Below, one piece after another: positions 51,473 to 63,372 of a stretch of DNA of 64,000 bases (positions are counted from its first letter, which is position 1; every line of letters begins with the position of its first letter). The translations under genes were made by a program, and so were the position numbers. The notes under the pieces were generated by a model that searched no databases, was not told the origin of the DNA, and was given only the letters and a program-made list of their open reading frames with translations. Source of the stretch: Natrinema ejinorense (GTDB lineage Archaea > Halobacteriota > Halobacteria > Halobacteriales > Natrialbaceae); contig NZ_NXNI01000001.1 in NCBI RefSeq assembly GCF_002494345.1, positions 2,232,001-2,296,000 on the forward strand, given 5' to 3'.

Positions 51473-51479
51473 TCAGACT
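51419..51479 (-). terminator. Putative terminator of the dockerin-type glycoprotein gene
   Basis: A 7-bp inverted repeat AGTCTGA/TCAGACT (51460-51466 and 51473-51479) covers the stop codon region. A TTTTTT run on the minus strand (51421-51426) follows. Confidence 0.4.
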
Positions 51480-54400
51480 TCCTGGTCGGTGTTGTACGCC
51501 TGAAGGACGGTCAGCACTTCGGTCGTGCCGATATCGCCGTTGTTGTTGTCCTGAATTGCGGTAAGGACTTCGTTGATATCGATCTGGCCGTTATCGTTCG
51601 TGTCGTACTGCGACACGTCGAAGTCGTTATTGCCGTCGTTTTCAGTGACAGTCAGCGTAGCAGTCTGGTCGTTGAGCGACGTCGAGACGCCGTGCTCGTA
51701 GTCACCAGCTTCGGCGTCGACGGTGTACTCGAACTCGACCGTGGTACTCTCTCCAGCATCGATCGTGACATCGGTGGAGTCCACGACTGCACCGTCGAAC
51801 ATGTAGTCGACCGTGTTGGTGGCACTCTCGGCACCGGTGTTAGTGACGTTTGCCGTCACCGTGATCGTGTCACCCTGGGCTGCGTCCGCAGGTGCAGCCA
51901 GGTCGGAGACCGCGAAGCCTTCGGGGGCCTCGACACCCTCGATCACGATGTCAGCGTTGGTCGTCCCGAGCGGGAGGTTCTCGTCGATCGTGTAACCAGT
52001 CTGTTCATTGAACGTCGCTTCAGTACGGTAGTCCATACCGGTTCGGAGGTCCGTGAACGCGTACGAACCAGTGGCACCAGTTTCACGCTGGCCAACGAGG
52101 TCGTACTCCTGGCTGGTTACGTTCCAGACGTAGAGTTCGACGTTTGCACCGGGGATGTTGTTGTCTTCTGCGTCAACAACGTCGCCAGTGATCTGACCGA
52201 CACCGAAGACTTCGACTTCGGCGTTCTGGTTCTCGTCGGTGGTGAACTCCGTGTCTTCGGAGTTCTCGGTAGTGGCGTTGATGTCAGTGACGCCCGTGTT
52301 CGGGCCACTGACGAACGTCGTCATCGCCGTACCGTTATCGTCGGTCGTGAGGTTGGTAGCGTCGAGTGCACCGACGGTACCGTCGTTGGTGGTAAGCTCA
52401 ACGTCCTGACCCGGAGCGGGGCTCCACTCGTCGTCGCCGGTCTGTGGGTTGCGCTCGGTCACGACCTGAACGTTGGTCGTGTCGTCGAGCGGCAGAGAGG
52501 TCGCGTTCACCCATTCGCCATCCTCTTCGACGTACACGTTCGTACGGTAGTCGAAGACGACGTCTTCCTGGAAGATAGCGACGTCTTGGGTCACCTGGTC
52601 GTTCGCAGCGCCAGTGTTCAGGTTCTGGTCCGTACCAGCGACGAACTGACCGGCTGCCTCAGAGGACAGGTTGATCTGGTCGTACTGGTCGTTGTAGGAC
52701 ACGTAGAGGTTGAACTCCGTCTGCTCACCGGCGAGACCGCTGACGACGTAAGCGCCGTCCTCGTTGGTCTCGGCGGTCAGGAAGGAGTCTCCCTCATCGT
52801 TAACGAAGGTGTCGTTGATGTAATCGTAGGACTGGTCGACCTGTCCGTCGTAGGCGACCCAGACGTTAGCGTCTTCGATCGGCTCCTGGGTTTCGCCGTC
52901 GCGGATCTCACCGGTGACGACTTCGTCGCCCTCGAGGACGTACGTGACGTTAGCTGCAGCACTCGCGTCGTCTGCAGTGGCGTCATCGTCGAGGCCGGAA
53001 ACTGCTTCGCCGTCGATGAGGTTTTTGACGATCGGCTGGATGTCTCCGGCGCCGTCCGTCATGTTGCTCTCGTTGGCGTAGTCAGCACTCACTTCGAACG
53101 TTTCGTACGACCAGTTGCCCGTCGCGGCATTGTCGTCGATGTTGCCTTCGGGGCTGTCGGGCGTGATCGTGACGGTCAGGTCCTGCGTGGAGTTACCCTG
53201 TTCATCGAGGAAGGTCGCGATGTCGAAGGTACCTGCAGCCACGGGATCGATTTCAGCAGTGCTGAGGTCGACCGTAACGTCGCGGTTCACAGCGCGGTTG
53301 TCGTCGTTCTGCGTCTGCGAGTAGACGACGTACGTCTGCGTGTTGTCGAGCTCCCCGTCTGCGAGAAGCGTCGTTTCGTTACTGACGATTTCCTGCTCTT
53401 CTTCGTCGAAGACGCCAATGCCGATCTCCTGTGGCGCTTCGTCGCTCTCGAGTTCGACTTCGACGCTGTCACCAGTTTGACCCGGCGTGTAGAGCGAAGC
53501 CGTACGGGTGTTCGAGACGAGGAGGGCGCTCCCTTCAGCTTCAACGACGTAGTCGTACGAGTCTGCCTGCGAAGGACCAACAGCGAGGCCCTCGAAGCGG
53601 ACGAATCCGTCGTCGTTAGTCGTGAGAGAGTCGAGCGGAACTGCAGTGGACGGGTCCGTGTTGTACTCGTCAGCATCGTAGATGTTGACGGTAGTATCCG
53701 CGACGGGTTCACGGGTGTCAGCATTGATGACGTCAGTGCTCACGGTCCCCTTGTCGTCCGTTGCGATCGTCAGGTCTACTCCAGCGTTGGAGTTGGCCGT
53801 GGCGACACCGTGACCGTAGTTGTCGTTGGAGTCAGTAGTAGCGCCACTGAAGACGGTATCGTCTCCCGTGTTCGGCGTGAACTCAACGTTCGCCTCTTCG
53901 CCAGGCGAGATCACAACGTTGGTCTGGCTGTCCTTCTCGTCAGTTCCGTCGAAGGCAAGGGTACCTGCCCCGTTTCCGACACCAGTCACGTGGTAGGAGA
54001 CCGTCTGATCTCCTGCGAGGTCACCGGTGTTCTCGATCGTTGCGTTGACCGTGATGTCCGCACCGTACGGTGCGTACGGTGGTGCATCGATGTTCGAAAC
54101 CTGATAGTTGGCTGGGTCGACGGTCAGCTCGTCGACGTTCTCGACGTCGGACCAGTCAGCTGTAGCAAGGCTGCCACCATCGGCTGGTTCGGCAGTCGCA
54201 CTCGAGCTACCCGAAACCGCGTAGACGTTGTAGCTGTCTGCAGCGAGACTAGTGATGTCTACGCTTTCGAAGGTGGTTTCGCCGGAGCTATCTGCCGATG
54301 CGCTGGCGTAGAGGTCGGTACCAGCGTCGTAAGTGGCGTCGGCACTCACCACGTATGCTACGTTCGAGTCACCCGCATCGTGAGTGACCGTAATATCCGA

Positions 54401-54559
54401 TTCGCCTGAGGCTGTATCGTCCGAATTAACCGCGGTCGCTGCCGCCGCCGCCCCGCCCGCAAACGCTGCGGACATGGCGACAACGGACAGTACCATCATC
54501 ACGGTCAGGAACACTGCGCGTCCCTTCTCGCGATAGGTTGGTTTGTCGTTTCTTGTCAT
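51473..54559 (-). CDS. S-layer-type surface glycoprotein with dockerin-like C terminus
   Basis: Very large exported surface protein of 1028 aa. The N terminus MTRNDKPTYREKGRAVFLTV then MMVLSVVAMSAAFAGGAAA matches the halobacterial surface-glycoprotein signal peptide. The body has several acidic Ig-like/CARDB/carboxypeptidase-regulatory-like beta domains, e.g. VVTGEIRDGETQEPIEDANV. The C-terminal 60 residues are dockerin-like with paired Ca-binding loops: DTNDNGQIDINEVLTAIQDN and NNGDIGTTEVLTVLQAY. There is no PGF-CTERM or membrane segment. It may be the cell's main S-layer protein, or bind a cohesin-like partner. Confidence 0.87.
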   Translation of the reverse strand: MTRNDKPTYREKGRAVFLTVMMVLSVVAMSAAFAGGAAAAATAVNSDDTASGESDITVTHDAGDSNVAYVVSADATYDAGTDLYASASADSSGETTFESVDITSLAADSYNVYAVSGSSSATAEPADGGSLATADWSDVENVDELTVDPANYQVSNIDAPPYAPYGADITVNATIENTGDLAGDQTVSYHVTGVGNGAGTLAFDGTDEKDSQTNVVISPGEEANVEFTPNTGDDTVFSGATTDSNDNYGHGVATANSNAGVDLTIATDDKGTVSTDVINADTREPVADTTVNIYDADEYNTDPSTAVPLDSLTTNDDGFVRFEGLAVGPSQADSYDYVVEAEGSALLVSNTRTASLYTPGQTGDSVEVELESDEAPQEIGIGVFDEEEQEIVSNETTLLADGELDNTQTYVVYSQTQNDDNRAVNRDVTVDLSTAEIDPVAAGTFDIATFLDEQGNSTQDLTVTITPDSPEGNIDDNAATGNWSYETFEVSADYANESNMTDGAGDIQPIVKNLIDGEAVSGLDDDATADDASAAANVTYVLEGDEVVTGEIRDGETQEPIEDANVWVAYDGQVDQSYDYINDTFVNDEGDSFLTAETNEDGAYVVSGLAGEQTEFNLYVSYNDQYDQINLSSEAAGQFVAGTDQNLNTGAANDQVTQDVAIFQEDVVFDYRTNVYVEEDGEWVNATSLPLDDTTNVQVVTERNPQTGDDEWSPAPGQDVELTTNDGTVGALDATNLTTDDNGTAMTTFVSGPNTGVTDINATTENSEDTEFTTDENQNAEVEVFGVGQITGDVVDAEDNNIPGANVELYVWNVTSQEYDLVGQRETGATGSYAFTDLRTGMDYRTEATFNEQTGYTIDENLPLGTTNADIVIEGVEAPEGFAVSDLAAPADAAQGDTITVTANVTNTGAESATNTVDYMFDGAVVDSTDVTIDAGESTTVEFEYTVDAEAGDYEHGVSTSLNDQTATLTVTENDGNNDFDVSQYDTNDNGQIDINEVLTAIQDNNNGDIGTTEVLTVLQAYNTDQEV

Positions 54560-55474: not shown

Positions 55475-56203
55475 TTACTCATCGGAGACCGTCTTCGCGT
55501 ACACGCGCGTCCGAAGATAATAGCTTAGTTCATCGTGAATTCCTCCGAGCCAGTCATCGTCCTCCGTACTCGAGCGGCGCAACACCGTCCCGAGAACCGT
55601 CGTCTGGATCGTCTCGGCGACGGCCTCCGGATCACACTCGCGGAAGGCCCCGTCGTCGATACCCGCCTGAAGGATCGCCGTGATCGACTCGCTGAACAGC
55701 CGATCGCTCCGGGTGAAGTGTTCTCGATAGGCCGGGTCGTGGACCGCCTGGCTCCGGAGTTCGAGGATCGTCGTCACGAACGCTCCCCACTCCTCTTCTT
55801 GGTCCACCGTGAACCACCACTCGAGGAGTTCCTCGAGTCGCGCCCGTGGCTCGTCGACGCCGCCTTGCCCGAGTTCGTCCTGGAAGTACTCGAGGAGGTA
55901 CTCCAGGCACGCGAGTACCAGCGCGTCCTTGTCCTCGTAGTGGTGGTAGATCAGCGACGGGCTCCGGTCGAGTTCCTCGCCGATCGTCTGTATCGTCAGC
56001 CCGGCGTAACCGTGGTCCCTGAGACTGCGATAGGTCGCTGCCAGGATCTCTTCGCGGGTATCCGCCGGGTCGTCGAACACGTCGATCGTCACGGCGGGCC
56101 ACCTCTGAACCGCGTCGGTCCGCCCGACTGTCCCCGGGCGAGTCTCGACGGCGCGACCAGATCGAAGGGTTGCATCTAGTGACAGCACAGCGTCGGACAC
56201 CAT
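55475..56203 (-). CDS. TetR/AcrR family transcriptional regulator
   Basis: Likely repressor of the divergent exporter operon, 242 aa from the ATG at 56203. The HTH is DTREEILAATYRSLRDHGYA, LTIQTIGEELDRSPSLIYHH, then YEDKDALVLACLEYLL, typical of TetR. The C-terminal ligand domain is all-helical. The first 37 residues are unlike the family, so a GTG at 56092 (VTIDVFDDPADTREE) may be the true start. A palindromic operator lies 7 bp upstream of 56203. Confidence 0.9.
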   Translation of the reverse strand: MVSDAVLSLDATLRSGRAVETRPGTVGRTDAVQRWPAVTIDVFDDPADTREEILAATYRSLRDHGYAGLTIQTIGEELDRSPSLIYHHYEDKDALVLACLEYLLEYFQDELGQGGVDEPRARLEELLEWWFTVDQEEEWGAFVTTILELRSQAVHDPAYREHFTRSDRLFSESITAILQAGIDDGAFRECDPEAVAETIQTTVLGTVLRRSSTEDDDWLGGIHDELSYYLRTRVYAKTVSDE

Positions 56204-56209
56204 AACCGG

Positions 56210-56231
56210 TTTGATTGAACGTTCATTCAAA
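56210..56231. promoter_or_regulatory. TetR-type palindromic operator
   Basis: A 22-bp inverted repeat with 10 of 11 base pairs matching, half-sites TTTGATTGAAC and GTTCATTCAAA meeting at AACGTT. It lies between the divergent tetR and exporter genes. It very probably is the binding site of the adjacent regulator, overlapping both promoters. Confidence 0.8.
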
Positions 56232-56265
56232 AGAGTTATAGCCTGCCCCTCCCGGACATCTGACA

Positions 56266-56364
56266 ATGAGCGAAAGTAACACCGCCGAACATGTATCGGG
56301 GGCGACGCCGTCGCCGCGCGACGCGTCACCCGCTCGCGACACACCCACTAGGTGGTTCCCGTGA
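56266..56364 (+). CDS. Possible 32-aa leader ORF of the exporter operon
   Basis: Starts MSESNTAEHVSGATPSPRDA and ends in a TGA that overlaps the GTG start of the next gene. It begins 35 bp after the TetR operator, so it would be the first ORF of the transcript. The peptide is polar and Ser/Pro-rich with no known family. It could couple translation to the exporter gene, or be chance. Confidence 0.4.
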   Translation: MSESNTAEHVSGATPSPRDASPARDTPTRWFP

Positions 56365-57974
56365 GCCGCCGTCGGCGTCTCGCCCTGGCCCTCGCTGCGA
56401 TCACCGTCGTCGGATTCCTCGCCCCGCTTGGCGCGACCGCAACGCTGGCACAACAGGCACCACAGCAGTCCGGCAACGATTTGACCCGCGGTGAACCGGA
56501 ACTCGAGGTCGTCAACTCGAACCCCGAAGTGACGCCGGGTACCGAGACGACCCTCGAAGTCAAGATCAAAAACGACGGAGATCTCAAAACCGGCTCACAG
56601 GCCGATCTGGTCCTGACGGCCCGCGGCGTCACCGCCGAGATCGAGGACGCCGGTCCCTTCGAATCCGGCTCCGGCGAGGTCGCCGTCGGTCCGATCCAGG
56701 ACGGGACGATCGCGACTGCGCCGCTCGAACTCGAGGTTCCCGAGGACGTCGAGCCCGGCAAATACGAAGTCGACGTTAAAGTTAGGTACGCCTACACGAA
56801 CCGCGTGTCGGAGTCCCAACAGCGGTTCACGACGACGGAAACGCTCGAGCTAGATGTCGTCGTTCCCGACGAACCACGGTTTTCGATCTCGAACGTCGAG
56901 ACCGACGTCGCGCCCGGCGAAAACGGCGATATGACGCTCGAGATCGAAAACACGGGAACGGAACCCGCGAACGAAACCCGCGTCTCCGTGACCGGGTTCG
57001 GTGGCGTGACGATCGATGGCGGGGCAAGCGAGAACGCCATCGGCGATCTCGCGCCCAACGAGTCGACGACGACGACGGTCAAGGCGGCAATCGCCGACTC
57101 GACGAGTGAGACGGCCAAGTCGGTCGAGGCGATGTTCACGTACGAAGACGGGTCGGGAATCGAGCGGACGTCACCCCCCACCCGATCGACGTTTACGCCC
57201 GCGGGCGAGCAGTCGTTTTCGATTCGAACGCTCGAGGACACCCTCTCGGTCGGTTACGAGGGAGAGGTGACCGGCGAAGTCGTCAACGACGGGCCACAAC
57301 CCGTCGACGACGCAGTGCTGATCGTCGAGCCGATGAGCGATTCGCTGTTCGTCGAGGATACCCGCTACGCGCTGCCCGAACTGAAATCGGGTGAAGCCGC
57401 GACGTTCCGTTATCCGACCGACGTCAGCGGAGAGGCCGACGCAGGTGCACGACAGCTTCGGTTTACCGTCGAATACACCGGGAGCGGCGATACGATGCTC
57501 CAGGACGGTCCGATCTCCGAGCGAGTCGTCGTCGACGAGCGCACCGACGAGTTCTCGATCAGCGACGACGGCGTCTCCGTCCGCCAGGGCGAAACCGGCG
57601 ATCTCGTACTCGAGATCACGAACGAGCGCGCGGAGACGCTGTCGAACATCGACGCCAGACTCTACACCGAAGGTGATCTCGACGCCCCCGACGACGAGGC
57701 CTTTGTCGACGAACTCGAGCCCGGCGAGTCGGCGGAGCTACCGTTCGAAGTCTCGGCGGGGGACGGTGCACGCGTCGAGACCCACCCCGTCGAACTCGAC
57801 TTCGAGTACGAAACCGAGCGCGGGGAGACGGTCCTCTCGGACGTCTACCAGCATCCCATCGAGGTCGAGCCCGGCGAGGACGACGGGGGTGGCTTCCCGT
57901 CGACTATCGTCGGAATCGCGGGTGCACTCGCCGTCACCGGACTCGGCGTCGGCCTCTGGTTGCGACGGAGCTAA
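56361..57974 (+). CDS. COG1361/CARDB-type exported membrane-anchored protein
   Basis: A 537-aa exported protein from the GTG at 56361. The signal is MSRRRRLALALAAITVVGFL. Repeated beta domains of CARDB/alpha-galactosidase-NEW3 type follow, each with VxPGExxxxxVxVxNxGxxxAxxV-like patterns (VVNSNPEVTPGTETTLEVKI, FSISNVETDVAPGENGDMTL, FSISDDGVSVRQGETGDLVL). A C-terminal membrane helix (STIVGIAGALAVTGLGVGLW) ends in WLRRS. It lies 3 bp before the MMPL exporter and probably acts as its extracellular partner. An alternative GTG is at 56352. Confidence 0.85.
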   Translation: MSRRRRLALALAAITVVGFLAPLGATATLAQQAPQQSGNDLTRGEPELEVVNSNPEVTPGTETTLEVKIKNDGDLKTGSQADLVLTARGVTAEIEDAGPFESGSGEVAVGPIQDGTIATAPLELEVPEDVEPGKYEVDVKVRYAYTNRVSESQQRFTTTETLELDVVVPDEPRFSISNVETDVAPGENGDMTLEIENTGTEPANETRVSVTGFGGVTIDGGASENAIGDLAPNESTTTTVKAAIADSTSETAKSVEAMFTYEDGSGIERTSPPTRSTFTPAGEQSFSIRTLEDTLSVGYEGEVTGEVVNDGPQPVDDAVLIVEPMSDSLFVEDTRYALPELKSGEAATFRYPTDVSGEADAGARQLRFTVEYTGSGDTMLQDGPISERVVVDERTDEFSISDDGVSVRQGETGDLVLEITNERAETLSNIDARLYTEGDLDAPDDEAFVDELEPGESAELPFEVSAGDGARVETHPVELDFEYETERGETVLSDVYQHPIEVEPGEDDGGGFPSTIVGIAGALAVTGLGVGLWLRRS

Positions 57975-57977
57975 CGG

Positions 57978-60515
57978 ATGAGGGACCTCGAGAAACGCCC
58001 TGAAGGTAGCGATTCGAGTGGGGACGGTCTCGATCTCGCCGATCGAGTCAACACGTTGATCACCGACCACCCCTGGCGGATCGTCCTCGCGTTCGTCGTG
58101 GTGACCGGCCTGTTCATCGGTGGCATCGGAGGCGGTGGCGAGCAAGAAGCCGGCACCGACCAGTTCACCGAGGGTCTAGAGGAACAGGAAGCCCTCGAGG
58201 ACATGCAGGACGACTTCGAACGCGGGGGTCGTGACGACGGCGGATCGTCCGCGAGCTTGTTTATCACTGACGACCACAACACCCTCTCGAAGCCGAGTCT
58301 GCTTCGGATGCTCGAGTTTCAGGAGCGTGCGGAAAACGAGGACGGGCTCCGGATCGTCTCCTCGACGAGTCCGGCCTCGCTCGTCGCGCAGCAACTCGAT
58401 CCGGAGGCCGACACGGCCGAAACACAGCGACGTGCCATCGAGCGGGCCTCCCAGGGAGAACTGGAGGCGGCGATCGCAGACGCCGACGAGAGTAGGGGGC
58501 TGCCGGTAAGCACGGACTTTACTCGTGAGTCGGCACAGGCGGACGTCGCTCAGATCGCCGTCACATACGATACGCCGCCGAACGCGGACGATTCCGACAA
58601 GGCCGAACTACAGACGCGAACGGCCGAACTGGCCGGCGAGATCGACGGCTACGAGACGGGCCAGAACGTCGAGGTCTTCGGCAACGCGCTCATCCAGGAA
58701 GAGACGGTGCAGTTGCTCGGAGACACCGCGATCGTCGTGTTCCCGGCGGCGCTCGTGTTGATCATGTTCTTCCTGCTCGTCGCCTACCGCGACCCGATCG
58801 ACCTCTCGCTTGGGTTGCTGGCGCTGGTGATGACGCTGATCTGGACGTTCGGGTTCATGGGGTACGCGGGGATCCCGTTCTCGGATTCGCTCGTCACGGT
58901 CTTTCCGCTGTTGCTCGCCGTCGGAATCGACTTCGGGATTCACATCATCAACCGGTATCGAGAGGAACGAGCGGCGGGAGCGGCGATCGGCGACGCGATG
59001 GGCATCACGACGCGCCAGCTTTCCGGTGCGTTCCTGATCGTCACGATCACGACCGTCATCGGATTCGCCGCGAACCTGACGAGTTCGCTCTCCCAGCTGC
59101 GTGACTTCGGTATCGTCGCCGCCGTCGGTATCATCTTCACGTTCCTCATCTTCGGGGTCTTCCTGCCGGCCGGGAAGGTCGGGCTGGATCGACTTCGGGA
59201 GGGAACGCGAATCCCGAACTTCGGATCTGCGCCGCTCGGAAACGAGGACTCGGTTCTCGGGTACGTCCTTCCCGTGGGAGCGAAGCTCGCACGGATTGCG
59301 CCCGCCGTCGTGCTCGTGAGCGCGCTCGTCTTCGGTGGGGCAGCGGCAGCCTACGGGACGGGCGTGGATACGGAGTTCTCACAGGAGGCGTTCTTCCCGG
59401 ACGAGGACCGGATCGCCCAGTACGAACGGCTTCCCGAGCCGTTCGCACCCAGCGATTACACGTTCATGGCCGTCCTCGACTACCTCGAGGAGGATTTCGA
59501 TCAGGGATTCGTGGGGTCGGTCACCGTCTACATCGACGATCCGGACGTCAGATCGGACAGTGCGTTTCGGGACGTCGACCGTGCGATCAGGGACCCCCCC
59601 GACGCGTTCAAGGAAACCGACCGCCGCGCGGAAGCCGATAGCATGATCAGCGCGATGGAGCAACGCAAGGAGACCGATCCCGAGTTCGCGGCGACAGTCC
59701 GTCGGACCGATTCGAACGGTGACGGACTTCCGGACCGGGACGTCGACCGGGTCTACGACGAACTGCTCGAGGAAGACGCGGCTCGCCAGTACGTCACGAG
59801 CGACCGGAGCGCGACCCGCATCGTGTATCAGGTAGACGTCGACGCGGACCAGACGGAGGCGACGAACGCCGCCGAAGCGGTCGCGGACGAAATGAAGATG
59901 GACGCGACGGCGACGGGCAGTCTGGTGGTCAACCAGGCCCTCATCGACCGCATCAGCGACTCGGCGATCAGGAGTCTGGTCGTCGCGTTCATCCTCACCG
60001 CCGTCTTCCTGATGCTGTCCTACTGGTGGCTCGAGGGACGGATGATCTACGGCGTGATCAACCTCGTGCCGGTCCTCGTGACCGTCGCGATGCTGGCGGG
60101 GTCGATGCGGCTCTTCGACGTTCCGCTCTCCCCGTTCAATGCACCCATTCTGTCGGTCTCGATCGGGCTTGGCGTCGACTACACCGTCCACTTCATGCAT
60201 CGGTTCGTCGACGAGTACGAGCGAGGAGCCGACGTTCACGATGCGCTCGCGGTGACCGTCCGCGGAACGGCCGGTGCCCTGACCGGCAGTATGCTCACGA
60301 CCGTCTGTGGGCTCGGCGTGTTGTATCTCGCTTTGATCCCGCTGATCATGGAGTTCGGGCTCCTGCTCGCGCTTGGGGTCTTCTACGCCTACCTCACGTC
60401 GCTCCTCTTGCTTCCGTCGACGATCGTCGTCTGGGACCGCCTCGAGCGGCGATTCGGGACGATCGGTGACCTGCAGTGGCGGGAATCGGCTCGCGCCTTG
60501 ACCGGACGGAAGTAG
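57978..60515 (+). CDS. MMPL/RND family exporter
   Basis: Integral membrane exporter of 845 aa, RND superfamily (MMPL/HpnN-like). Two homologous halves have six TM segments each: TM1 WRIVLAFVVVTGLFIGGIGG, then a large extracytoplasmic loop, then LVLIMFFLLVAYRDPIDLSL to RNLTSSLSQLRDFGIVAAVG; the second half repeats this (VVAFILTAVFLMLSYWWLEG, LGVDYTVHFMHRFVDEYERG). Asp-rich TM motifs DFGIHIINRY and DYTVHFMHRF fit proton-coupled transport. Expression is presumably controlled by the TetR regulator. Substrate unknown; lipids or drugs are usual for the family. Confidence 0.92.
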   Translation: MRDLEKRPEGSDSSGDGLDLADRVNTLITDHPWRIVLAFVVVTGLFIGGIGGGGEQEAGTDQFTEGLEEQEALEDMQDDFERGGRDDGGSSASLFITDDHNTLSKPSLLRMLEFQERAENEDGLRIVSSTSPASLVAQQLDPEADTAETQRRAIERASQGELEAAIADADESRGLPVSTDFTRESAQADVAQIAVTYDTPPNADDSDKAELQTRTAELAGEIDGYETGQNVEVFGNALIQEETVQLLGDTAIVVFPAALVLIMFFLLVAYRDPIDLSLGLLALVMTLIWTFGFMGYAGIPFSDSLVTVFPLLLAVGIDFGIHIINRYREERAAGAAIGDAMGITTRQLSGAFLIVTITTVIGFAANLTSSLSQLRDFGIVAAVGIIFTFLIFGVFLPAGKVGLDRLREGTRIPNFGSAPLGNEDSVLGYVLPVGAKLARIAPAVVLVSALVFGGAAAAYGTGVDTEFSQEAFFPDEDRIAQYERLPEPFAPSDYTFMAVLDYLEEDFDQGFVGSVTVYIDDPDVRSDSAFRDVDRAIRDPPDAFKETDRRAEADSMISAMEQRKETDPEFAATVRRTDSNGDGLPDRDVDRVYDELLEEDAARQYVTSDRSATRIVYQVDVDADQTEATNAAEAVADEMKMDATATGSLVVNQALIDRISDSAIRSLVVAFILTAVFLMLSYWWLEGRMIYGVINLVPVLVTVAMLAGSMRLFDVPLSPFNAPILSVSIGLGVDYTVHFMHRFVDEYERGADVHDALAVTVRGTAGALTGSMLTTVCGLGVLYLALIPLIMEFGLLLALGVFYAYLTSLLLLPSTIVVWDRLERRFGTIGDLQWRESARALTGRK

Positions 60516-60781: not shown

Positions 60782-62659
60782 TCAGTTAACCGATTTCGAA
60801 AGCTCGGCGCCGGCCTTGAACTTCACGTCGTTCGAGGCCTCGACAGCGGCGAGATGGACGACCGGCGCATCCAACGCCATCACGAGCATCTCGGCTGAAT
60901 CGCCGTCATCGGTAGCGTCATCACCGGCCTGTTCTCCGCGTGTCCGACCCGGCTTTTTGCGAACGACCCGGTCGTTGCCTTCTCGCAACGCGTTCAGCCC
61001 GTCTGCTCCGTCCTCGGTCCGGAGTGCCGCCGGCAAGTAGTCGGCGTCCCGGTCGTGCTCACCGCTGACCATCGTCGTTCCGTAGTGACTGCGGGGACGT
61101 GAGAGGCGACGGGCGACGAGGTCGCCGTAGCCGTCGCCGTCGACGTCGGCCGCGGAAACAGCGACCACCTCCGTCGGGCCCTCGCTGGCCAGGAGGGTCA
61201 TGGTGTTCTCGTAGAGTGCGCCGTCGTCGATCAGCCACCCGCCGGTGAAGAGGTACTGCTCGTCGTGCTTACAGCGCCGAACGTAGAACAGCGCGGGCAT
61301 CGGGCACGGGCAACCCGGCGGCGTCGCCAGCACGGGACAGACCAGCGTCGGCGTCACGGCGACGCCATCTGCCACCGTTTCCTCCCCCCACTCATCGAGA
61401 GAGTCGGGCGCGTACGCGACACCCTGGTACAGCTTCGGCGTCGTTCTGTCCTCCGTAACGTACAGCATCGTTTCGGCACCGTCGGCATCCGGCAGGACGC
61501 CCGTGACGCAGACGCCACCGCGTGTCGTGAACGCAGCGACGCCCCGGCTGCCCTTGTAGGACTGTTCGTCGAGCGTTGCCGAAAGGAGATTCCGGCACGC
61601 GATATCTCGGTGGATTCTGGCAGCCCCCTCGCGTCCGTTCGCTTCGCACCGCTCGCCGTTTGGCTCGCCGGTGAAGTATTCGATCACCCGTCGTGGCGTG
61701 AGTTCGTCGACCAGCGCGCCGCGGTCGGCCGGCAGACGGGCGTCGGGTAGACAGACGGTGAACCGCTCGCCGATGGTCGGGTCGTCGTCGAGATAGTCGT
61801 ACAGCGCTGTGACTTCGTCGGGAATGCCGTCGCCGTCGTCGTCCATGTCGTCAATCCAGTCCGGAGTCCGTATCGTCGATCCGGATCCGTTACTCCGCGT
61901 GTTGTCGTTTGTACGGGCGTCCTCCAACCGCGTGATGTCTCCCTCGACGACGCCCCGGACCTCCTCGAGCAGTCCGTCCGCCTCGTCCCAGTCCTCGGCG
62001 TCGACGGCGTCCATCGTGGCGCGAATGCTCTTTACTCGACCGTCGGAACTCTCTCTGACGGCCGAACAGACGTCGCTGGTACAGCGGTCGAGTTCGGGCC
62101 TGAGCGCCCTGGTCGTAGCGTTGATGAAGGCGTCGAGGGCCTTCTTGCTATCGGCTTTCGATCGTCGGCTCACGGCGTCCAGCGCCGAATCGACGTGGCC
62201 CAACAGTTCCCGTTCGACCTCGAGTACCGTGGCGTGGCTGTCGTCGTTGGCGTCGTCGCCGTCGTCGGACTGGTCCCACCACTCGCTGCTCGGTTTGTTC
62301 GACCGCGAGGAGTTGTAGTCCTGTGCCTTCGTGACGGCGCTGGTGCTCCACCCCTCGAGATCGAGCTCGCCGGAGAGGAAGCCGGCACCGCCCCGAATCG
62401 TGGCCGGCACGTACCGGACGTCCGTCGGGCCTGCCCCGTACGCGCGGATCGCCTCGGTACCCGACGTCGCGCGTGTGGCGTCGCCGTCGTAGTATGCGGC
62501 CGGTGAGGCCCCGGTGTTCGTCGTCGCGCCCGCAACCCGCTCGAGACACCCGCTCAGCCCACCTGCGGCGAGAATGCCACCGGTTGCGAGTAATTGTCGG
62601 CGCGTCACAGTCGGGTTTCGATCGCCCACCGGCGTCTCGATGCGCTGCGTATTCTCCAT
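60782..62659 (-). CDS. Large Tat lipoprotein with EF-hand/FG-GAP-like motifs
   Basis: A 625-aa surface lipoprotein of unknown function. The N terminus contains TRRQLLATGGILAAGGLSGC, a Tat motif and lipobox. The mid region has many Cys (CRNLL, CVTGV, CPVLATPPGCPCPMPALF, CKHDE) that could bind metal or form disulfides. Calcium-loop-like segments DMDDDGDGIPDEV and DVDGDGYGDLVAR resemble EF-hand/FG-GAP motifs. It begins at the ATG at 62659; upstream in-frame sequence is not protein-like. No operon partner. Confidence 0.7.
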   Translation of the reverse strand: MENTQRIETPVGDRNPTVTRRQLLATGGILAAGGLSGCLERVAGATTNTGASPAAYYDGDATRATSGTEAIRAYGAGPTDVRYVPATIRGGAGFLSGELDLEGWSTSAVTKAQDYNSSRSNKPSSEWWDQSDDGDDANDDSHATVLEVERELLGHVDSALDAVSRRSKADSKKALDAFINATTRALRPELDRCTSDVCSAVRESSDGRVKSIRATMDAVDAEDWDEADGLLEEVRGVVEGDITRLEDARTNDNTRSNGSGSTIRTPDWIDDMDDDGDGIPDEVTALYDYLDDDPTIGERFTVCLPDARLPADRGALVDELTPRRVIEYFTGEPNGERCEANGREGAARIHRDIACRNLLSATLDEQSYKGSRGVAAFTTRGGVCVTGVLPDADGAETMLYVTEDRTTPKLYQGVAYAPDSLDEWGEETVADGVAVTPTLVCPVLATPPGCPCPMPALFYVRRCKHDEQYLFTGGWLIDDGALYENTMTLLASEGPTEVVAVSAADVDGDGYGDLVARRLSRPRSHYGTTMVSGEHDRDADYLPAALRTEDGADGLNALREGNDRVVRKKPGRTRGEQAGDDATDDGDSAEMLVMALDAPVVHLAAVEASNDVKFKAGAELSKSVN

Positions 62660-63024
62660 AAACGACGTATATATGTTTCGGAAGGTATTAAGTGTGTGTA
62701 TCTCTAACGAACGAGACTGTATTCCACTCGAGCATCGGAGAACGAGCGAGAACCGACTGAACGGTACACAGAAGAGACTCGACGAGGAAGCTTCCGAGCG
62801 CTGAAGGCTCGGAAGAAGGGCGGACAACGCTTCAGTGAACCCGTCAAGCGCCTCGCAGGAGAACGGTTCTGGAACGAGGTCGCAGGCATTCGTTCCGAGG
62901 CGCCAGCCCTCGAGGCCGCCATCGAAGAGGGGCCAACGACGTCTAGAGAACGGAGTGACCGTCTCACTGCGGAACGAGTATCGGTCACGTAGTGACCAGT
63001 CGAGACGTGATTCGTTGGTGCTAT
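62660..63024. other. Intergenic region containing a decayed antitoxin gene
   Basis: About 365 bp. Its first 45 bp are AT-rich and probably carry the promoter of the lipoprotein gene. Most of the rest is the antitoxin remnant listed separately. Confidence 0.5.
62777..62992 (+). pseudogene. Decayed VapB-type antitoxin (UPF0330-like)
   Basis: A plus-strand frame without any start codon ends at a TAG at 62992. It reads FRALKARKKGGQRFSEPVKR, then LAGERFWNEVAGIRSEAPAL and EAAIEEGPTTSRERSDRLTA. This pattern (LKARKK...FSxxVKRLAGER...EVAGI...AIEEG..RSRERSDRLTAE) is that of haloarchaeal VapB-like antitoxins from memory. The N-terminal strand and start are lost and no PIN toxin follows. Confidence 0.55.
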
Positions 63025-63372
63025 CTACTGGTCGATTTCTTCGTGAATCGACTCGCCAGTACCGGGTTTTGATTCCCACTCCCACTCGTCCACGACTCTA
63101 ATACGTCCATCGTCGAGGTGTTCGACGTCACCGACGGAGTGGCCAGTTGCGGTTTCGTTATCCGTATTTATTTGGGTGTATCTGATGTCCCATTGCTCCC
63201 CGTCGAACGTCCCAACCAAGTGTCCATCCACGATCTCGCCACCAGCGTAGTTCGCATAGATTCGTTCACCGGTCTGCTCGAAGTGGAAGACGGTATCTGC
63301 ACCCACTTCCCCGTCTTCGTCATTTGCAACGCCAGCGAGTGTCCGGCCATCAAACGATATTTCGTCTCCCAT
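63025..63372 (-). CDS. Small protein of the family often labelled 'N-acetylglutamate synthase'
   Basis: A 115-aa protein. The pattern ISFDGRTLAGVANDEDGEVG, TVFHFEQTGERIYANYAGGE, IVDGHLVGTFDGEQWDIRYT and DGRIRVVDEWEWES matches a short beta-rich family common in Firmicutes and other bacteria. In databases it is often named n-acetylglutamate synthase without basis, as it lacks a GNAT fold. The repeated strand-turn units resemble MORN-like repeats. Its presence in a haloarchaeon next to decayed DNA suggests acquisition by transfer. Confidence 0.72.
   Translation of the reverse strand: MGDEISFDGRTLAGVANDEDGEVGADTVFHFEQTGERIYANYAGGEIVDGHLVGTFDGEQWDIRYTQINTDNETATGHSVGDVEHLDDGRIRVVDEWEWESKPGTGESIHEEIDQ

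Follow-up and report, generated by a model that had tools for sequence, protein, structure and literature searches.

A predicted TetR-gated RND/MMPL pump module of Natrinema ejinorense with a conserved CARDB partner gene and a candidate ribosome-relay leader ORF

The closest described relative of the module reported here is the HVO_A0466/HVO_A0467 pair of Haloferax volcanii, in which an exported protein with four Ig folds and a C-terminal transmembrane (TM) helix is encoded upstream of an 827-aa RND permease with 12 TM helices, the two genes overlapping by 1 nt (PMC11349517). That 2024 study described the pair as an RND permease and an RND-associated glycoprotein, adjacent in 21 haloarchaeal genomes and with matching trees; HVO_A0467 was 44-fold up in iron starvation and siderophore export was proposed. 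A comparable arrangement is seen in the mycobacterial MmpS5/MmpL5 and MmpS4/MmpL4 systems, where an RND/MMPL pump is translationally coupled to an operon-encoded, Ig-like, membrane-anchored accessory protein and a repressor gene adjoins (PMC12346298, PMC12501195). The module also invites comparison with translation in Haloferax, where 72% of transcripts are leaderless (PMC4983044), initiation is not driven by Shine-Dalgarno (SD) motifs located in 5'-UTRs (PMC3986360), and an overlap of roughly 4 nt or 1 nt (-4/-1) is required for reinitiation (PMC6728339, PMC10666635). In the same organism 16 uORFs of 15-31 aa in long 5'-UTRs have been treated as small proteins (PMC6728339, PMC10666635, PMC4983044, PMC3986360).

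We analysed a window of 64,000 nucleotides from the archaeon Natrinema ejinorense, in which positions 55475-60515 hold a tetR gene, a 22-bp palindrome, a 32-aa ORF, a CARDB gene and a gene for an RND/MMPL pump. All five had been named in an initial annotation of this DNA, and all are present where it placed them. The tetR gene (55475..56092, minus strand) encodes a TetR-family repressor with the Pfam domains TetR_N and TetR_C_6, the latter a BetI-type C-terminal domain. Its likely start is GTG 56092, identified through a 4-nt overlap and an SD motif, and not that of the long ORF reaching to 56344. The overlap is made by a leader ORF of 28 aa (MQPFDLVAPSRLARGQSGGPTRFRGGPP; 56089..56175, minus strand) that the annotation had missed; it ends in a GTGA overlap with tetR after an SD-like GAGGTG at 56100-56105. 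On the plus strand the 32-aa leader ORF (56266..56364) overlaps the GTG of the CARDB gene (56361..57974; alternative start GTG 56352) by 4 nt, and the pump gene (57978..60515) begins after a gap of 3 bp, and this part of the annotation holds by coordinates and Pfam domains. Further upstream in the window (51473-54559, minus strand) lies a gene for a large exported surface glycoprotein with the TIGR04207 haloarchaeal surface-glycoprotein signal and a C-terminal EF-hand/dockerin-like segment, a relative of which adjoins the module in 11 of 80 surveyed loci from several genera. Immediately 3' of the pump, and convergent with it, is a gene for an FG-GAP-repeat-like protein (60782-63085, minus strand), whose likely start is within the called ORF. 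Across the surveyed pump loci we found no neighbour besides tetR that is kept in most of them; other recurring neighbours were Halorubrum-specific or of Natrialbaceae type only.

The 845-aa pump matches PF03176 (MMPL) in two stretches with 146 bits against a cut-off of 20.5, placing it in the RND/MMPL superfamily. Its best NCBIfam model was HAE3 (TIGR00921), and because the score of 243.9 bits falls below the cut-off of 351.9 we call the pump HAE3-like only. The nearest named pumps in a pump-based scan were from Natrinema, with 83-86% identity. Using Foldseek, the structure model (pLDDT 82) was best matched by MmpL5/MmpS5 and MmpS4-MmpL4 entries, and VIA-align placed NPC1-type, Dispatched, CmeB/AcrB-type and MmpL5/4 chains close together (Z 36-38). 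Asp318, Phe319 and Tyr735 (D318, F319 and Y735) are invariant and D734 nearly so; in RND pumps, proton-relay residues are found at these positions.

The initial annotation had cast the CARDB protein as a fixed extracellular partner of the pump, like the periplasmic partner of bacterial RND systems, a claim that depends on the two genes being conserved as neighbours. Of the 80 best loci of a pump-based scan of GTDB species genomes, 77 have a co-directional CARDB gene immediately upstream of the pump; a script found 76 of these, and the other is L132, whose pump ORF had been called too long. We found none beside the pump at two Halorussus loci (L193 and L200) and in one MAG (L178). The short-type pumps of other fetched Halobacteria loci have a CARDB neighbour in 43 of 43 cases; some of these loci were picked knowing of a CARDB hit, and the 80-locus sample is the fairer test. 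In distant Euryarchaeota, 10 of 16 HAE3 loci have a CARDB/NEW3 gene adjoining the pump, on the upstream side in four and on the downstream side in six. Since the genes are conserved as neighbours in both samples, a fixed CARDB-pump partnership is supported at the level of gene order. Distances between CARDB proteins and between pump proteins are also correlated (0.95), a co-divergence that linkage alone could produce. The pairing itself has already been published (PMC11349517), and it is the operator and the leader ORFs that are new here. With an exported four-Ig protein, a C-terminal TM helix and a position directly upstream of an RND permease, the window pair is of the HVO_A0466/HVO_A0467 type; it differs from the H. 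volcanii pair, whose permease is iron-responsive (PMC11349517), in that a divergent TetR acting at a conserved operator, together with leader ORFs, is predicted to control it. The likeness to HVO_A0466/HVO_A0467 rests on the published description, and the pumps of the Haloferax relatives in our survey (L189, L191 and L198) are 46-48% identical to the window pump.

Could the CARDB protein instead be a surface glycoprotein or adhesin in its own right, sharing only a transcript with the pump? Its CARDB and NEW3 domains are generic, the best Foldseek matches of its model in the PDB are generic Ig repeats, and the TIGR04207 surface-glycoprotein gene is close by. However, adjacency is kept in nearly all the haloarchaeal loci and also, with reversed order, in distant archaea, and the pumps that lack a CARDB neighbour differ in architecture, which makes this explanation unlikely. 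The genome of the window encodes two further pumps, of about 1000 aa, that lack a CARDB neighbour, and we term these long type. None of the long-type pumps checked has a neighbouring CARDB gene, and long-type HAE3 pumps (L002, L003, L057-L062, L105 and L106) carry an insertion of 88-160 aa in the first extracellular loop, after the position of residue 148 of the window pump. This insertion is probably helical and possibly does the partner's job. Because the long type combines an extracellular insertion with the lack of a CARDB neighbour, short pumps with a partner and long pumps without one look like two designs.

The CARDB protein contains the Pfam domains CARDB and NPCBM_assoc/NEW3, and its model (mean pLDDT 86, with a pTM of 0.56 that leaves the inter-domain arrangement uncertain) shows four Ig-like domains between a signal segment and a C-terminal TM helix, the two membrane-proximal domains being the most conserved. 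We rejected the idea that it is a membrane-fusion-protein adaptor. The adaptors of tripartite RND pumps have a helical hairpin, which the model does not contain, having just one four-residue helix beyond the signal and TM segments; in addition, we found no PDB sequence match for the protein and no membrane-fusion protein among the Foldseek matches listed. The partnership that had been annotated is thus supported by adjacency, while the analogy to a periplasmic partner is a loose one. Judged from the model, the CARDB protein resembles MmpS or a spacer more than it does a membrane-fusion protein. It is not an MmpS-type accessory in the strict sense, as the single Ig-like domain and N-terminal TM helix of MmpS stand against four such domains and a C-terminal helix in the CARDB protein; the pump also differs from MmpL in having no predicted long coiled-coil hairpin, and the host has no outer membrane.

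A related question is whether the module exports siderophores, the role proposed for HVO_A0467 and reported for MmpL4/5. It shares family and gene pairing with HVO_A0466/HVO_A0467 (PMC11349517), MmpL4/5 are among the closest pump folds, and genes for two IucA/IucC proteins are present on another contig of the genome. Against this, control appears to lie with a local TetR, and in 46 genomes of the family IucA/IucC occurs in 4 of 12 with a window-type pump and in 12 of 34 without one, in a tally made by hand that took IucA/IucC as the only siderophore test and counted genomes outside the pump survey as lacking the pump. In the sister genome G005, which may lack plasmids, the pump is present and IucA/IucC is not. 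We therefore rejected a dedicated link to NIS siderophores, with no co-occurrence of IucA/IucC and window-type pumps, and consider siderophore export in general to be quite unlikely. Gene co-occurrence does not support a siderophore-only role, and other siderophore roles remain compatible with it.

The near-perfect palindrome that had been noticed between tetR and the coupled genes proved to be just that. It reads TTTGATTGAACGTTCATTCAAA (56210..56231; core TGATTGAACGTTCATTCA, 56212-56229), with 11-bp arms and one mismatched pair in 11. Given the TetR_N domain of the divergent gene product and the intergenic position of the palindrome, we predict that it is the operator bound by TetR. The motif TGATTGAACGTTCAWTCA recurs between tetR and the CARDB gene across genera and several families, with a score of at least 13 of 18 in 56 of the surveyed loci, hereafter the operator loci. 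An 18-bp match with up to three mismatches is expected by chance 0.02 times per window, and at up to one mismatch of the degenerate pattern the site occurs once in the 4.48-Mb genome. TetR is missing or undetected at about a third of pump loci. In the window the operator sits midway between two divergent TATA-like elements, both assigned by sequence inspection: TTATA at 56236..56240 (plus strand), a putative promoter element of the CARDB-pump operon that precedes the leader ATG by about 28 bp (56238 to 56266), and one for tetR at 56201..56205 (minus strand), about 28 bp before the ATG of the tetR leader. Two further predicted operators deserve mention. In the Haloferax relatives L189, L191 and L198 a 16/18 match (TGATTGTACGTTCAGTCA) lies upstream of the CARDB gene, but these loci lack both a divergent TetR and a leader ATG at the expected spacing. 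In the genome of the window, a second pump, which is of the long type (L003, 780-1010; C1:2117396 region), also faces a divergent TetR; two CCGAACGTTCGG palindromes stand there in tandem, an operator that differs from the one in the window but shares the core GAACGTTC. The window operator also resembles, we presume, the BM3R1-type fatty-acid operator, which we take as a lead only.

The ORF of 32 aa had been listed in the initial annotation and left unexplained, although it is the more interesting part of the module. Gene starts in the surveyed loci were set mechanically and the loci are related by descent, so the following counts are of non-independent events. Of the 56 operator loci, 52 have an ATG at 43-46 bp from the operator centre, where about one would be expected from the local ATG frequency, and it falls about 28 bp past the TATA-like element. 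In 40 of 51 leader ORFs the stop shares exactly 4 nt with an in-frame CARDB start, and the other 11 miss this exact overlap; leaders are present in 17 genera and the exact overlap in 11. Ahead of the CARDB start, 34/49 loci have an SD match of 5 nt or more, a length reached at 2.6% of control positions. The window junction shows the same features, a GTGA overlap preceded by AGGTG (56350..56354, plus strand), those of a termination-reinitiation pair, and we predict that CARDB translation depends on the leader.

Might the leader nevertheless be incidental, either a chance open frame in the 5'-UTR or the product of a mis-set CARDB start? Open frames are common in GC-rich DNA, and a lenient scan of other genes found an ORF with a 4-nt overlap at about 12%, and at 4% with an SD motif. 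At L151 the CARDB gene begins directly at the leader position (+44), with no separate leader, and at L091 the leader is fused in frame to CARDB, so the leader is not strictly needed. Still, ATG position, overlap and SD motif coincide across genera despite unconserved leaders, and tetR itself starts at an equal distance from the operator on the opposite flank. We give an incidental frame little credence, and on these sequence patterns the 32-aa ORF is no chance frame. On the tetR side the gene starts in frame at +43 to +45 from the operator centre in 27/47 loci, mostly Halorubrum, and the TetR proteins that start directly there have conserved MDDPFAEP-like N-termini; this distance would mark the start position of a leaderless message. 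At the window locus and in several further Natrialbaceae, tetR is instead preceded by its own leader, so that across the operator loci tetR may or may not have one, whereas the CARDB gene almost always does.

A second possibility is a leader peptide with a function or a sensing role, such as that of an attenuator stalling on a drug or metabolite to switch pump expression. In bacteria, short ORFs upstream of efflux genes act as stalling attenuators, and the position of the leader is strongly conserved. Its peptide sequence is not, however, and lengths are mostly 19-67 aa. GC content is flat over the codon positions of the leader (0.68/0.70/0.67), compared with 0.68/0.48/0.87 in the CARDB gene, and substitutions among close relatives are equally flat (345/354/371). 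We observed no excess of RNA folding over shuffles in the leader region (mean z -0.25). A functional peptide was rejected on the codon-position statistics and an RNA-structure attenuator on the folding result, and a sensing role appears highly improbable. In one Halorubrum locus (L165) an in-frame peptide repeat (GPSHRS) has lengthened the leader frame, which still closes in the overlap.

The best reading of the leader, from these features, is that of a relay and not a sensor, as it bears the marks of the upstream gene in a reinitiation pair minus a conserved product. Since Haloferax mRNAs are mostly leaderless, with SD motifs inert in 5'-UTRs and reinitiation occurring at overlaps, a gene starting 80-170 nt inside its transcript could make use of a first ORF that loads ribosomes and passes them on. 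The full model, with TetR-gated divergent promoters, a leaderless relay ORF and the CARDB protein as extracellular pump partner, we consider probable. A TetR dimer on the single operator would block both tetR and the CARDB-pump operon, until released by a small ligand that is probably amphiphilic and probably related to the pump cargo. Transcription would then begin on or beside the leader ATG, whose spacing of 43-46 bp from the operator centre is seen directly, giving a leaderless mRNA that opens with the short ORF. Ribosomes would load at this ATG, make a peptide of no importance, stop at the TGA overlapping the CARDB start and reinitiate there, aided by the SD motif. The four-Ig-domain protein would be exported and anchored by its C-terminal helix beside the proton-driven pump, where, in a role like that of MmpS towards MmpL, it may assemble or extend the pump beneath the S-layer. 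The cargo might be an amphiphile or lipid-like compound.

The predicted relay resembles the termination-reinitiation pairs and uORFs of Haloferax in its leaderless start, 4-nt overlap and SD motif inside the upstream frame (PMC6728339, PMC10666635, PMC4983044, PMC3986360). Those pairs consist of protein genes, in contrast to the module, where the upstream frame shows no peptide constraint and keeps a fixed operator distance over many genera. If the model is right, a mostly leaderless archaeon can place a gene start downstream of the transcript start by means of a disposable first ORF and reinitiation. Given the conserved geometry of operator, TATA element, ATG and stop-start overlap, the relay could be tested by mutating a few positions in a haloarchaeon that is genetically tractable. 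The module would also add a TetR-controlled branch to the archaeal RND-partner pairs, whose mycobacterial counterpart is of medical interest. We tentatively suggest, with confidence a little short of even, that such leaders form a class of genetic element, leaderless ribosome-entry frames lacking a peptide function that keep a fixed distance from the promoter and relay ribosomes by termination-reinitiation onto transcript-internal starts; we found no prior description of translational relay ORFs of this kind in the open-access literature. They may be widespread in haloarchaea, which appear not to use SD initiation in 5'-UTRs, and given the overlaps in the lenient scan the device may occur at other genes. 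Among 249 other well-separated genes (L123-L202), 11 are preceded by an ATG ORF of 15-60 codons that ends in a 4-nt overlap with an SD motif, and these are possible further relay ORFs.
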